In this document: one piece after another, positions 28,535 to 33,452 of the stretch
How positions within the stretch are numbered: position 1 is the first letter of the stretch
How the letters are laid out: each line of letters opens with the position of its first letter
Origin: Hirschia sp.
GTDB taxonomy: Bacteria > Pseudomonadota > Alphaproteobacteria > Caulobacterales > Hyphomonadaceae
Assembly: GCA_002709235.1 (NCBI GenBank)
Contig: PAQI01000024.1
Coordinates: forward strand, 145,581 to 209,580
Direction: 5' to 3'
Length of the DNA stretch: 64,000 bases
The notes under the pieces: model-generated
The model's database searches: none
Seen by the model: only the letters and a program-made list of their open reading frames with translations
Told to the model about the DNA's origin: nothing
Made by a program: the position numbers and the translations under genes

Positions 28535-28768
28535 CTACTCGCTGTCCAGATAGATTTCGCCATCAAGGTCATCCAGCTTGATCTGGAGATGTTGGCGTAC
28601 ATCCTGAACCGCCTGATTGTAGACGGTTGGGCCGAGTGTCTTGAGCATCAGATCGATCACGGCATCGGCGCGAAACTCCGTCAGGGTCTCATCAAAATCA
28701 GAACTGAACAGACGGATCAGGTGATCTCGCAGGGCCTCCCGGCGCTCTTCTGACAGGTCCGGCATCAT
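28535..28768 (-). CDS. DUF2164 family small protein
   Basis: A 77-residue acidic helical protein of the DUF2164/COG5460 type, shown by the 'GPTVYNQAVQDVRQHLQIKLDDLDGEIY' central segment. Function is unknown. It overlaps the upstream M23 lipoprotein gene by 4 bases, as ATGA, so it is the last gene of the 28.5-33.3 kb minus-strand operon. Its 3' end is 8 bases from the gpmI stop. Confidence 0.8.
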   Translation of the reverse strand: MMPDLSEERREALRDHLIRLFSSDFDETLTEFRADAVIDLMLKTLGPTVYNQAVQDVRQHLQIKLDDLDGEIYLDSE

Positions 28769-29808
28769 TCTGAGGCGATAGCTACATTCGAATCGCCATC
28801 ATCCGAAACCATCTTTCCGGGTGCGCCTTCCCTGCGCTCATAGGCGGCAACCAGTGAGGTATAGGGCGGTGCCCAGGTCCATCCATGTTCAGCAGTGTTG
28901 TGCTTGATCTCGAAATGCAGGTGTAGGGTCGTGGGCGTCCCGCCAAAATCATTGGAGACATAGCCAAGCGTATCACCAGCTTTGACCGACTGGCCCAACT
29001 GTACTTTCAGTGCCTGCATGTTCATGTGCATATAGCGATAGATCCGGCCACCGGCTCTTACATTCACCGTGTAGCGTCCGACATTGGAAATGACTCCATC
29101 TTCGGCCGCAACCACCTCATAACGCTTGCGGTTTGCGGAAGACAATCTGCGCTCGGCATTGCAGCCAGCTGGCGTGCCTACGCGAATGTCCTGCCCAAGA
29201 TGCACCTTGTTGAGTGGGCAATAGGGGGTGCCATTATTTGTCGAACGCTTTTCGCAATAATTATCCCGCCAAGGATATTCGAAATTGCGCGCATCGCACT
29301 GGTCACCACCGCCAATGCCGCCGCCAAACCGATAGACCTGACTTTGTGGATATGCGGGAGCATCCTTGATCGGGAACACCATCTCAGGAACATAGATTGT
29401 ATCGTCGACAACGCCCTGCCCGCTATTTTCTTCCAGATCGCCCGGTGGGTAATAGAAAAATGCGGGTTCAACAGTCGGCGTCGGTGTCGGCGTGAGGGTC
29501 TCTTCCGGCGGGACGGATGGAGTGGGTTCAGGCGTTGAGGTGTCGACCGGTTCGGGTGTCTCCGTTTCTGTAGGAAGCGGCGTTGGAACAATTGGATCAC
29601 CTTCCATACCGTCGGTCGGTTCAGAAGTCGGGGTACCAGCCTCGTCTGGTGTGTTTGAGGGCGCAGGCACAGGTGTAGGCGTTTGCGCTACCGGCGGAGA
29701 AGAACCCTTGGGTTCAAGTATCTGAACCTGGTCACACGCTGCCAACAGCAGGGTCGACACCGATAAAAAGGCACATAAACGCCAGACGGATGATCTGCTG
29801 ATACTCAT
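28765..29808 (-). CDS. M23 metallopeptidase lipoprotein with Thr/Pro-rich tether
   Basis: A 347-residue lipoprotein (lipobox LLAAC, Cys25). Residues about 30-115 are a Thr/Pro/Glu-rich low-complexity tether, followed by a C-terminal M23 peptidase domain (about 190-330). The zinc and catalytic residues of active LytM enzymes are present: HLGQD, YMHM and HLHFE. It should cleave peptidoglycan peptides while tethered to a membrane, reaching across the periplasm. A GGGA precedes the ATG. It is part of the S8 protease operon. Confidence 0.85.
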   Translation of the reverse strand: MSISRSSVWRLCAFLSVSTLLLAACDQVQILEPKGSSPPVAQTPTPVPAPSNTPDEAGTPTSEPTDGMEGDPIVPTPLPTETETPEPVDTSTPEPTPSVPPEETLTPTPTPTVEPAFFYYPPGDLEENSGQGVVDDTIYVPEMVFPIKDAPAYPQSQVYRFGGGIGGGDQCDARNFEYPWRDNYCEKRSTNNGTPYCPLNKVHLGQDIRVGTPAGCNAERRLSSANRKRYEVVAAEDGVISNVGRYTVNVRAGGRIYRYMHMNMQALKVQLGQSVKAGDTLGYVSNDFGGTPTTLHLHFEIKHNTAEHGWTWAPPYTSLVAAYERREGAPGKMVSDDGDSNVAIASE

Positions 29809-29851
29809 ATCCGGTCCCTTGGCTCAAAATACAACTGGATCCGCAGTCGGC

Positions 29852-30436
29852 TTATTCTTCAGCCGCAGCGACGAACAGTCCCTTGGCAACATCCAGAGCC
29901 TCTTCCTGGGAGATGCAGTTTTCTTCACCATCCAGGATGCGGCACTCGAATTCGATCAGATAATCCGCCCCATAGCGGGAAAAGGATACCTGCGCACCAG
30001 CCTCCATCGCAGTGAAGACCATATTGGCGCGTTCGTCTTCATTCATGTCGGCAGCACTGTCACCAAACACTTCATCAGTACCGTTTACGATGATGTCGTA
30101 TTTAGGGCCGGGATAATGGGCGAAGTATCCATCTGAAGATGGCGCATAGGTCGGGCTTGCATTTTGAGGCATGACCACACCTGTTGGCAAAAGCACGGGA
30201 ACAGGGCTTCCGGCACCATTGCTCTGCACCGTTACGATATCAGCCGACTTGCCAGCCTCGATCGCTTCAATACGCGCCTGACGCGCAGCAGCCCAGTCAA
30301 TCGAACGCGTTTCAGCCTTGGGTGTATCACCGCCGGTCAGCTTTTCGGGCTCCTGTGCTTCCTGACTTTCGCCGCTACAGGCAACCAGCGACAGACAAAG
30401 CATGGCGGTGGCGACACTCATGGACAAGCGGATCAT
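29852..30436 (-). CDS. Small lipoprotein of unknown function
   Basis: A 194-residue lipoprotein (lipobox LVAC, Cys20) with no recognised domain. The C-terminal half is acidic and has two Cys (FECRILDGEENC) likely to form a disulfide. Its start overlaps the stop of the pro-domain-like gene as ATGA, and the M23 lipoprotein follows after 43 bases. It is a likely component of the same envelope system. Confidence 0.65.
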   Translation of the reverse strand: MIRLSMSVATAMLCLSLVACSGESQEAQEPEKLTGGDTPKAETRSIDWAAARQARIEAIEAGKSADIVTVQSNGAGSPVPVLLPTGVVMPQNASPTYAPSSDGYFAHYPGPKYDIIVNGTDEVFGDSAADMNEDERANMVFTAMEAGAQVSFSRYGADYLIEFECRILDGEENCISQEEALDVAKGLFVAAAEE

Positions 30437-31056
30437 TTATCATCCTTTCCCGGCTGGGCAGTTGCATTGGGTTCTGCGTAGGAAACATCCGGGGATTCGC
30501 GAAGTTTCCGTGTTGCCTCATAATAACGCGACCGAAGCTCGGAAGATCCCGGCTCAGCATCAATCCCAGACAGATCGAGCACCAATTCATTGGAATAGGT
30601 CGCCCGTTTCAATTGCAGACCTTCAAGATAAGGCTTGTTCGCAATGAATGCAGCGAATGCCTCTTGAGCAGCGGCCTTGTCTTTCCAGAACAGGTTGCAG
30701 ATTTCCTTGACCTCGGCACTATCCTTGAACTTGACGACGATCTCGGGCGAAACAGGAGGCATGCCGCCAGGACGTGGCGGCGCGCCCATTTGTGTCGGAC
30801 TGACAACGCCGCTTGCGGTATCAGACCCGGACATGGGATCTGGTGCTGCAGTACTCTGATCAGCGATTTCTGTGGACCTGTTGCGCGACTCCTCGCCAGG
30901 AGGTGGACCATCTTCTGACAGAAAAAACCCGGTCGCAGCGGCAACACCCAGACCCAGAACAACACCCAATGGACCAGTAACGCGACTACCTGTTCCATCC
31001 TGAGCGGTCGGAGCATGTATGCCGGTCATGGCGTCATCTGGATCTGGTTTCGTCAT
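30433..31056 (-). CDS. Membrane-tethered protein resembling a stand-alone subtilase pro-domain
   Basis: About 207 residues: a membrane segment (about 28-46), a Pro/Ser-rich linker, and a domain starting PEIVVKFKDSAEV and ending ESPDVSYAEPN. The start and end match the I9-type pro-domain of subtilisin-like proteases (for example 'IVKFK...VEYAEPN'). The S8 protease is immediately upstream in the operon, 38 bases away, and carries its own pro-region. This protein may fold or inhibit the protease in trans. This reading is from motif similarity and neighbourhood. Confidence 0.6.
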   Translation of the reverse strand: MTKPDPDDAMTGIHAPTAQDGTGSRVTGPLGVVLGLGVAAATGFFLSEDGPPPGEESRNRSTEIADQSTAAPDPMSGSDTASGVVSPTQMGAPPRPGGMPPVSPEIVVKFKDSAEVKEICNLFWKDKAAAQEAFAAFIANKPYLEGLQLKRATYSNELVLDLSGIDAEPGSSELRSRYYEATRKLRESPDVSYAEPNATAQPGKDDK

Positions 31057-31094
31057 GTCAATCGGCCCCTCCGCCCAACAGGGCAATTACCAAT

Positions 31095-33338
31095 TTACTC
31101 CAACGGCGCTTTGGCAAGATCGAGTGTGGCACCACCACAGGGGCGGTAACACATGCCTTCTTCACCTGGAATTGGCGTGGAACCTGGATATTGGGTACAT
31201 TTTCCCGAGCATTGCAATTGGCTGCGTGGCTGAGTTGCAGTCAAAAGCCGCGATTTGAGCTGATCTGCACTCGCGGCCGGAAACTGTGATTTCAAAAGCG
31301 CCAATGCAGCAGATACATGCGGTGCTGCCATCGAAGTTCCGTTTTCATAGGCATAAAAGCAGGTCTCGACGGGCTCTTCAGTCACTGGATCATAGCAATT
31401 GTGAGAGGTCTTGGTGGAGAGGATTCCATCCGGCCGACCATCATTATCATCGTCCCGGGACATATCCCCTCCAGGTGCCATGATATCAACGGCGTCTCCA
31501 TAATTGGAATAATAGGCCAGCTGTCCTCGACCATCACCCGCCGCAACTGTCACGACATTATCGCAACCGCCAGGTGCGTAGTATTTGGTGTCGATGCGTG
31601 CATTGCCTGCAGCTGCGACAACAATGGCACCAGATGCGGTAGCGTCATTGATGGCTTCCTGAAGTGAAGCGGGGCAACGCTCGAACAGACCAATTGACAG
31701 GTTGATGATATCGGCCGGATTGGCATTCCAGATCTCACTACCAATATCGTCACGCGCCGGAACCACGCCGGCTGCCCAACGGATGGCGTCGTTGATGTCA
31801 GACAATTGCCCGCCACATCGTCCCAGGGCACGCACAGGCACAATCGTGACATTCCACGCACCACCAGCAACACCACTTGCATTGTTTGTCGCCGCCACTC
31901 CAACAGTTCCGGCTACATGGGTCCCGTGAAAAGTGTCTTCGGAAAGCGGGTCGCTCGGGTCACATGCATCGCCCGGATCTGACGGGTCACTATCGCGCCC
32001 GTCACCATCATTTCCCATGAACGGATCTGAAACCATGTCGAAACCAGGTGCCAGATTAGCCGACCCCTTGATGTCGGGATGATCCATCTGCAGGCCGGTA
32101 TCGACAACGGCCACCGTCACTGCAGCTGATCCTGTCTGGTGCGTGCGGTTCCAGAAATCTGCAAACCCTGCCCCGCCTTCAGACTTGTCATTACCTTTTC
32201 CGAATTCTCGGAAATGCCACTGCAAGGACCAAAGCGGATCATTCGGCTTGATGTTGGAAATCGTTGCTGTCGGAGTGTTAGACGGACGGCGCTCAAACTG
32301 GTGTGAGAAGATGAAGTCTTTTTCCACATATTCATAATCACCCGACTCCTCGAGTGTCTCGACGACGCAACGCGTGGCCAGTTCAGCATCGGTTTTCATC
32401 AATGCCTTTGCGCGCTCACTATTACAGGCCAGGTCGTTAGTGGTGAGTTTCGCAGGCGCAAACCTGTTGCGAATGCGCTGCTCCTTTATTCCCCGAATAT
32501 CCTGCGAGCCTTCAAGCGGATATTTCGTCGGACTGATATTGACCTGAATGACCATTGAGCCGCCATCACGGGCCTCCACCTGTCCGGGCAGACCGAGCTT
32601 TTCAAGACGCTCTCGCGTGCGTTCACGCATGACCACAGCTTTATCCTCATCCAGCATGCGACGCATACGCGGACCAGCGGTATCAGGCATTTTCTCCATT
32701 CTTTTCAAGGCTTCCTGAGAAAGCCCGTCGATCTGGCGCAATTTTTCCAACCGCGGTGCATCCGACATTTCCGGCAGTTTTCTCGCCATGGTATCGTCGA
32801 GTCGCTTCACAACGGGTGGCTTCATGGCGCGTGCAGATTCACGTAAGGCCTTGAGCGACGGTTCGCGAGCTTCCATCGGAGTTGAACGGCCCTCAATAAA
32901 GGGTTCCGGCTCTGGTGCGGACATGATGGCTTCAGGAAGCGGTGCCTGATCAGCTTCCGCGCTGAATTCTTCTTCAACTTCAGCCGCGACTTCGTCTGAG
33001 GTGATGATTGCCGACATGTCTTCACGTGGTTTGGCAATCACAGACCCGACAGCGAAATAGCTTTCCGTGCGCAAGGCTTCTTCAAGCGTGACATCCGCAA
33101 CTCCGGCGCGTTGAACCATGACGCCTGCCAGGGCGCGATCATCCAGAGAAGCAGCCTGCAAAATTTCCTGATCCGTTGGCTCTCCCAGAACATCATGCGT
33201 GAGTTGCTCTTGCACCTGTCCGCTAAGTTCTTCAAAATTCTTCTTGCGCTCTTCGACCTTTTCGCAAGCAGCGAGGGTCAGGCAAAACGCCAGCGCTCCA
33301 CCTGACAAAGCCGTTTTCACAAAGCGAATTCGCATCAT
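31095..33338 (-). CDS. Subtilisin-like (S8) serine protease lipoprotein
   Basis: About 747 residues. Signal peptide with lipobox (LTLAAC), then a long charged N-terminal region (about 30-310), a pro-domain-like part ending ESGDYEYVEKDF, and a catalytic domain with Asp413 (VAVVDTG), His471 (HGTHVAGT) and Ser669 (NGTSMAAPH), plus the oxyanion Asn in VAAAGN. All active-site residues are present. Tethered to an envelope membrane, it should cleave proteins there. GGAG stands five bases before the ATG at 33338. It is the first gene of a five-gene minus-strand operon. Confidence 0.88.
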   Translation of the reverse strand: MMRIRFVKTALSGGALAFCLTLAACEKVEERKKNFEELSGQVQEQLTHDVLGEPTDQEILQAASLDDRALAGVMVQRAGVADVTLEEALRTESYFAVGSVIAKPREDMSAIITSDEVAAEVEEEFSAEADQAPLPEAIMSAPEPEPFIEGRSTPMEAREPSLKALRESARAMKPPVVKRLDDTMARKLPEMSDAPRLEKLRQIDGLSQEALKRMEKMPDTAGPRMRRMLDEDKAVVMRERTRERLEKLGLPGQVEARDGGSMVIQVNISPTKYPLEGSQDIRGIKEQRIRNRFAPAKLTTNDLACNSERAKALMKTDAELATRCVVETLEESGDYEYVEKDFIFSHQFERRPSNTPTATISNIKPNDPLWSLQWHFREFGKGNDKSEGGAGFADFWNRTHQTGSAAVTVAVVDTGLQMDHPDIKGSANLAPGFDMVSDPFMGNDGDGRDSDPSDPGDACDPSDPLSEDTFHGTHVAGTVGVAATNNASGVAGGAWNVTIVPVRALGRCGGQLSDINDAIRWAAGVVPARDDIGSEIWNANPADIINLSIGLFERCPASLQEAINDATASGAIVVAAAGNARIDTKYYAPGGCDNVVTVAAGDGRGQLAYYSNYGDAVDIMAPGGDMSRDDDNDGRPDGILSTKTSHNCYDPVTEEPVETCFYAYENGTSMAAPHVSAALALLKSQFPAASADQLKSRLLTATQPRSQLQCSGKCTQYPGSTPIPGEEGMCYRPCGGATLDLAKAPLE

Positions 33339-33452
33339 TGATGCTCCATCTTCGTTGAGCCCGAAACCTGATTTCATCGACCGATCATCCCTGTCGTAAA
33401 ACCATTTACCAAGGTCTGTTTACCATGCCTGACGCATATGACGATGACATAA

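Follow-up and report, generated by a model that had tools for sequence, protein, structure and literature searches.

Why would a bacterial protease that appears to carry a pro-domain of its own be followed by a gene for a second, separate protein that resembles a pro-domain? This question is raised by a 64,000-nucleotide stretch of a Hirschia sp. contig (PAQI01000024.1), called the window in this text, in which five consecutive genes, all on the minus strand, run from position 33338 to position 28535 and encode an S8 protease, a small protein predicted to be membrane-tethered (the partner), a lipoprotein, an M23 peptidase and a DUF2164 protein. We consider it rather probable that the partner, encoded in the same operon and tethered to the membrane, acts in the manner of a propeptide as an inhibitor of the neighbouring protease, which it would bind and keep inactive. 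The protease and the partner form the conserved core of the locus, and their linkage goes beyond chance.

The linkage was followed in 105 genomes of the family to which the window belongs (f1), in 299 genomes across the order, including a second family of the same order (f3), and in 385 genomes across the class; g3 and g6 denote genera, and the labels G and L denote genomes and loci. The protease, taken at E <= 1e-150 within f1 and at E <= 1e-120 in the order sample, was present in 83 of the 105 f1 genomes and in 83 of the 299 order genomes (49 f1, 34 f3). The partner was present in 92/105 f1 genomes, in 78/299 order genomes (55 f1, 23 f3) and in two of the 385 class genomes, both f1, as counted with a search profile that was built from f1 members and overlooks some f3 partners. 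No relative of it was found at E <= 0.001 in the plasmid records. The original prediction had proposed a search for the gene pair in other genomes, and in this search the partner match lay at most 167 nucleotides (nt) from the protease match in 81 of 83 f1 genomes. The two exceptions are assembly breaks: the protease of G076 stands at a contig end, and the remainder of the G113 locus lies on another contig with all four genes. In f3, the partner adjoins the protease in 32 of 34 genomes (19 and 13, in two sets of loci); the two genomes in which no adjoining partner was found are G130 and G296. The ratio of nonsynonymous to synonymous substitution rates (dN/dS) of the partner was 0.07–0.20 in all 21 pairs, drawn from seven loci of one genus.

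The partner is a separate gene product. It has its own open frame, and a stop codon stands before it in all ten of the closest-coupled junctions that were read, at nine of which it is in the same frame as the protease. A protease-partner fusion, as which frames of 972–997 amino acids (aa) in nine genomes could be taken, was ruled out by the stop codon at those nine junctions and at that of G101. In genus g6, the partner follows in frame directly behind the protease stop (L045, L053, L066, L067, L068, L069, L071, L072 and L073), with the junction TGAATG in eight of the nine loci and TAAGTG in L067. These junctions suggest tight translational coupling of the protease and the partner.

The S8 protease has an intact triad. 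D413, H471, N579 (the oxyanion Asn) and S669 were identical in all 26 aligned proteases (the interrupted L043 was left aside), in agreement with the full Asp/His/Ser triad that had been read from the window. In the AlphaFold2 model of the protease, with a mean predicted local distance difference test (pLDDT) score of 65, the pro-domain elements are a strand at residues 94–104, a helix at 231–247, strands at 252–256 and 262–266, a helix at 318–332 and a strand at 335–344. These elements lie ahead of the catalytic domain in the order seen in subtilase pro-domains, except that strand 1 is followed by a long insert; in the model and the alignment, about 125 poorly conserved residues part this strand from the remaining pro-domain. 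The EpiP pro-enzyme (3t41_A, chain 30–452) was matched to residues 97–747 of the model with Z 30.0 over 349 residues, and mature subtilases matched it only from residue 363–367 onward. Near the end of the pro-domain, Y337, V338, E339, D341 and Q347 were the same in 26/26 sequences. These results suggest, with approximate boundaries and at modest model confidence, that the protease carries a complete pro-domain of its own, and the partner would therefore be a second pro-domain and not the missing half of the first. A split pro-domain, in which the partner supplies an absent strand 1, helix 1 and hairpin, had been suggested by the alignment and was ruled out by the AlphaFold2 model and the EpiP alignment. 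The protease did not reach the cut-offs of the dentilisin PrtP model (NF033595; 44.5 vs 300 bits) or the mycosin model (TIGR03921; 114.5 vs 278.75 bits).

The structure of the partner domain was predicted as had been proposed. The AlphaFold2 model is confident at residues 101–200 (block mean pLDDT 83–97), and residues 105–196 follow the order strand-helix-helix-strand-strand-helix-strand. The order of the pro-domain fold (strand-helix-strand-strand-helix-strand) was found in it, but this fold is common, does not discriminate and is by itself no proof of a pro-domain. Among the 50 structure matches listed for the partner there were the subtilase prodomains 3cnq_P (Z 5.5), 9fid_F (5.3), 9fic (5.2), 1scj_B (4.8) and 4lvn_P (4.6), as well as pro-subtilisin 3whi_A (Z 5.0). 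No potempin chain was among these 50, which we do not count as a sign of a different fold.

Sequence similarity, although weak, may tell more about the kinship of the partner with pro-domains than the fold does. The sole Pfam match of the window partner was Fervidolysin_NPro-like (PF22148; 22.3 bits against a cut-off of 21, E 1.7e-4). When aligned to the BPN' prosegment, the partner profile kept order and register, with strand 1 as 'evefiVkfKde' and helix 2, strand 4 and tail as 'ireivkrLralddvaYAepdytAqp', where 'dytAqp' falls on 'dhvAha' of the prosegment. In a profile-to-profile comparison, helix 2 to strand 4 of the partner also aligned with the last part of the pro-domain that the protease itself carries (hhalign probability 5%, P 0.0078). 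Together with the confident model, the match just above the Pfam cut-off and the in-register alignment uphold the original prediction of a stand-alone pro-domain-like protein, which had been made by eye. Of the two outcomes that were to refute it, a different fold of the partner and a lack of co-occurrence in other genomes, neither was observed.

The residues that would touch the enzyme were then compared. In BPN', Glu69 and Asp71 of the propeptide cap two helices of the enzyme and the tail lies in the cleft, according to the accessible part of PubMed Central (PMC) article PMC6993865; the position of propeptide tails in the subtilase cleft is also given in the accessible part of PMC10580911. 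We counted tail positions from the strand-4 tyrosine as residue 1, with the register set by the BPN' profile alignment, so that Glu69 and Asp71 correspond to positions 3 and 5, P4 to position 8 and P1 to position 11. Among the distinct readable tails adjoining a protease, position 3 was acidic in 47/47 f1 and 29/30 f3 tails, position 5 was D or N in 41/47 and 30/30, and position 8 was Ala in 43/47 and 23/30, with Val in six and Gly in one of the remaining f3 tails. Position 10 was Pro and position 11 was Gly in 38/47 f1 tails each, but in only 10/30 and 7/30 f3 tails, respectively. These counts exclude the f1 row L082 (out of frame) and the f3 row L113 (masked), and many of the tails are closely related, so that the counts are not independent. 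L133 and L138 were classed as having no protease since their frames overlap it, though a protease adjoins both; with them, the f3 counts become 31/32, 32/32 and 24/32 for positions 3, 5 and 8. The readable partner chains beside proteases stop 10–18 residues from the strand-4 Tyr, where P1 is expected at 11. Capping acids and an active-site-type tail near the chain end are the marks of a stand-alone inhibitor of the I9 type, and the partner has both.

Based on these findings, we propose that the core is a two-gene module of a lipid-anchored, envelope-facing S8 protease and a membrane-tethered stand-alone pro-domain encoded just behind it. The protease would fold and mature with its own pro-domain in cis, as its predicted anatomy suggests. 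Once this pro-domain is gone, the partner would dock on the mature protease in the way of subtilisin propeptides, with its sheet packed on the enzyme surface. E195 and N197 in the last strand of the partner would cap two surface helices of the protease, and the tail TAQPG would enter the cleft, placing Ala200 at P4 and Gly203 close to P1. The protease would then be kept switched off at the membrane for as long as the partner is neither removed nor degraded. Any reversibility of this kind, like any substrate of the system or link to the cell wall, is something we infer.

Several observations weigh against this reading. Chains of the ACT and RRM types tie with or exceed the prodomains among the 50 structure matches (Z up to 6.0, none reaching 8), and Foldseek with the partner model gave 0 of 608 matches at E <= 0.001; the fold alone therefore proves little. 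PF22148 was matched by only 8 of 27 partners at E <= 1 (in an alignment without L043, whose tail is out of frame, and with the paralogue L044), and the I9 model PF05922 had no match genome-wide at E <= 0.001. The match to the BPN' prosegment was weak (E 0.28), its strand 1 piece alone scored below zero, and a hydrogenase chain matched the anchor part of the partner profile at E 0.23. Among partner paralogues that do not adjoin the protease, the capping pair is present in 5/5 distinct tails and the Ala in 1/5, and two of these paralogues are found in genomes without the operon protease (G070 and G078); the capping pair alone is therefore not diagnostic. In G269, a partner with an intact tail had no protease within the 9 kb examined (L145).

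The partner also occurs without the full protease. In seven g3 genomes (L063, L065, L127, L128, L057, L058 and L064) and in G064 (L078), it adjoins a lipoprotein stub of 60–100 aa, which matches only the first ~60 residues of the protease and in which the catalytic domain was not seen. These eight genomes were found via the partner, and their number says nothing on how often stubs keep a partner. Their tails are acidic at position 3 in 4/8, have D or N at position 5 in 0/7 readable cases (L057 has X there) and Ala at position 8 in none of the six that reach it (L078 and L128 stop before). Such decay fits a contact that was lost with the enzyme, plus a second role that the partner may have. The stub genomes probably stand for about two independent losses and not for eight, which lowers the weight of this comparison. 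Furthermore, the partner dN/dS was 0.08–0.12 in three close g3 pairs without the protease, and that of the stub was 0.17–0.27 (three pairs); seven more distant orphan-partner pairs, with dN/dS 0.19–0.34 at a synonymous divergence (dS) of 1.9–4.0 or with saturated dS, were not relied on. No S8 gene was found in G064, and the g3 genomes have one to three S8 genes elsewhere. Because purifying selection acts on the partner even where the protease is missing, and because the partner is present in G064, it should have some other role as well.

Besides these, a second, stand-alone partner paralogue was observed at L062:9002-9493, at L077:4916-5452 and in L079–L081; its neighbour in L062 and L077 looks like a gene for a Rieske-type Fe-S subunit. 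An extra partner-like gene at L044:8858-9337 (G015) apparently encodes a signal peptide that can be cleaved; it immediately follows a small gene whose product starts like a lipoprotein, and no protease of the operon type was found within the region examined.

The stub lineages also invite a wider account, in which two pro-domains act in series, one in cis for folding and a membrane-tethered one in trans as a reversible off-switch. The trans one would also bind the protease at its lipid-anchored N-terminal segment. In lineages where the catalytic domain was discarded, this anchor complex would have become an independent envelope module. We regard this combined account as speculative and rather improbable as a whole.

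The other genes of the locus bear on a role in the cell wall. The original prediction had suggested an envelope proteolysis and wall-remodelling system here; in such a system, the protease would activate or destroy the M23 hydrolase and the partner would time this step. Such a role is compatible with an inhibitor, and it draws on the presence of the M23 gene in the cluster at 26 of 27 f1 loci, the remaining locus being cut by a contig end. The zinc ligands H203, D207, H296 and H298 (HxxxD and HxH) were the same in 25/25 aligned M23 proteins (L036, at a contig end, was left aside), consistent with the active-looking peptidase lipoprotein described before, and Asp at +2 of the lipoprotein signal was found in 25/25. 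In f3, however, the lipoprotein and the M23 gene were both present in just one of 20 loci (G058), and the lipoprotein also in G304 on a 3.1 kb contig; three of these 20 loci (G304, G201 and G241) end at a contig edge too early to tell. Neither gene was found within the 4–5 kb examined at 15 further f3 loci. The M23 gene being nearly absent from f3 loci, the pair evidently works without it, and we find the wall-remodelling role weak and doubtful. The lipoprotein, found in 82/105 f1 genomes, and the M23 gene are mainly an f1 addition to the module, and may be its clients or co-workers. DUF2164 is a passenger. It was in the cluster at 5 of 27 f1 loci, two of the 27 ending at a contig edge before it could show, and was rejected as a core member; the five-gene operon that had been proposed is too wide to this extent.

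In all seven g3 genomes and in G064, the part of the protease that stands next to the partner is precisely the N-terminal lipoprotein segment. This could mean that the partner is an adaptor or sensor on this segment, which uses the pro-domain fold as a binding scaffold, with inhibition secondary or absent. Purifying selection on the partner in the g3 pairs near enough to measure would agree with this. Yet active-site-type tail residues are kept beside proteases and mostly lost at stubs, a loss that a pure adaptor does not predict, and we think it unlikely that the partner is one. That the partner is instead a membrane-tethered in-trans foldase (steric chaperone), letting the protease lipoprotein fold after export, seems quite unlikely: subtilase pro-domains are commonly chaperones (PMC10580911, accessible part), a hydrophobic stretch precedes the domain in all 27 aligned partners and the gene lies directly behind that of the protease, at nine of ten junctions read in its frame behind the stop codon, but a second foldase is superfluous at face value where the protease is already modelled with a complete pro-domain, and the partner is retained in genomes without the protease. 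The original prediction had left the in-trans function as inhibitor or foldase. The inhibitor side gains from the contact residues kept beside the protease and mostly lost at stubs, although inhibition itself stays a conjecture, and the foldase side has no special support, given the pro-domain in the protease model.

In the preferred reading of the partner as an inhibitor, it would meet the protease at the membrane. The lipobox Cys of the protease was present in 26/26 sequences with Asp or Glu at +2 in 25/26, and the M23 protein has Cys-Asp in 25/25. The residue after the Cys of the middle lipoprotein is mixed, being Asp or Glu in 13 of the 25 sequences with the Cys. The hydrophobic stretch of the partners has a mean hydropathy of at least 1.5, and a loose lipobox pattern was found in 12/27; no lipobox pattern was matched in the window partner. 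Asp at +2 retains lipoproteins in the inner membrane in E. coli, a rule that may not hold in these bacteria. A common membrane address for the operon proteins is plausible from these sequence features.

Stand-alone propeptide-like inhibitors, of MEROPS I9 and alike, are listed in the accessible part of PMC6993865 as the yeast peptidase B inhibitor, Pleurotus POIA1, Arabidopsis SPI-1, Plasmodium SUB1-ProM and TgMIC5. Like these eukaryotic inhibitors, the partner is small and separate and has a propeptide fold, acidic capping residues and a C-terminal tail; moreover, the SUB1-ProM gene adjoins its protease gene, as that of the partner does. Unlike the examples named there, the putative inhibitor of the window comes from a bacterium and has a predicted membrane or lipid tether, and its gene directly follows that of a lipid-anchored protease. 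Our searches of openly licensed PMC papers turned up no stand-alone propeptide-like protein from a bacterium. The name of the fervidolysin-type family PF22148 points to an N-terminal region within a protease, whereas the partner is a separate protein with its own anchor.

Among bacterial systems, the potempins and KLIKK proteases of Tannerella forsythia combine a protease with an adjacent small lipoprotein described as its specific inhibitor, and mirolase among them has a subtilase fold (PMC7296668 and PMC4404884, accessible parts). The potempin C-mirolase entry 8ehe_A was among the structure matches of our protease model. In that system, which belongs to another phylum, the potempin gene precedes the protease, whereas the partner follows it; the comparison is one of gene order. 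The dentilisin operon prcB-prcA-prtP of Treponema denticola encodes an acylated S8 protease and accessory lipoproteins, of which PrcB is needed for the protease, but in the accessible part of PMC8167434 these accessory proteins are not termed pro-domain-like, unlike the partner. The LmdC-bactofilin module of Hyphomonas neptunium, probably a related alphaproteobacterium, also has an envelope M23 peptidase (PMC10945521). According to the accessible part of that article, LmdC contains coiled coils and is bitopic in the membrane, whereas the M23 protein studied here is a predicted lipoprotein encoded behind a protease gene. If our reading holds, the window would contain a bacterial stand-alone subtilisin pro-domain that is encoded directly behind its protease and fixed to the membrane, and it would show how a bacterium holds a dangerous envelope protease in reserve after the enzyme's own pro-domain is spent. 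The stub lineages would offer a natural test of further uses of the pro-domain fold.

Table. Positions in the window of the genes and predicted domains at the protease-partner locus
Feature	Positions	Strand	Basis
S8 (subtilase) protease, predicted lipoprotein (lipobox Cys25), 747 aa	31095..33338	-	Pfam; Cys25 in 26/26 aligned orthologues
Predicted strand 1 of the protease pro-domain, residues 94-104, YFAVGSVIAKP	33027..33059	-	Model secondary structure; EpiP pro-enzyme aligned from residue 97
Predicted remainder of the protease pro-domain, residues 231-347, behind the insert of ~125 residues	32298..32648	-	Alignment, model, structure comparison
S8 catalytic domain, residues 364-704, triad D413/H471/S669	31227..32249	-	Pfam, alignment, structure comparison
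Partner, predicted membrane-tethered stand-alone pro-domain-like protein, 207 aa	30433..31056	-	Pfam, AlphaFold2 model, profile alignment
Predicted membrane anchor of the partner, residues 28-47	30916..30975	-	Hydrophobic stretch
Pro-domain-like fold and tail of the partner, residues 105-203	30448..30744	-	Model: strand (E) and helix (H) at E105-110, H114-125, H127-138, E148-152, E157-161, H172-187, E191-196
C-terminal tail of the partner, residues 193-203, YAEPNATAQPG, expected in the protease cleft	30448..30480	-	Tail counts, profile alignment
Lipoprotein without convincing family, kept with the protease/partner pair in f1	29852..30436	-	Alignment, profile search
M23 peptidase lipoprotein, intact zinc ligands H203/D207/H296/H298	28765..29808	-	Pfam, alignment
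DUF2164 gene, passenger (5/27 f1 loci)	28535..28768	-	Pfam, locus comparison

The five genes were found by reading frames and Pfam where the original prediction had put them, with Peptidase_S8 at 4.9e-55 (PF00082, 187.3 bits), Peptidase_M23 at 1.5e-11 and DUF2164 at 6.9e-20. In gene order, the protease and the partner are 38 nt apart, the partner and the lipoprotein overlap by 4 bases, the lipoprotein and the M23 gene are 43 nt apart, and the M23 and DUF2164 genes overlap by 4 bases, so that both of the overlaps noted before are present. The protease could alternatively start at an in-frame ATG at 33377. Neither the promoter-like sites (4, with 3.3 expected) nor the terminator-like sites (8, with 4.5 expected and a standard deviation of 2.4) were informative. 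The middle lipoprotein had no convincing family or structure, its best hits being E 0.029 in Pfam (1/26 sequences), E 0.0047 in NCBIfam (1/26) and E 0.47 in the PDB, and a third pro-domain was rejected for it on an hhalign probability of 0.3 between the partner and this protein. Its alignment of 26 sequences, which leaves aside the over-long frame of L059, has 17 invariant positions, including two Cys near the C-terminus.

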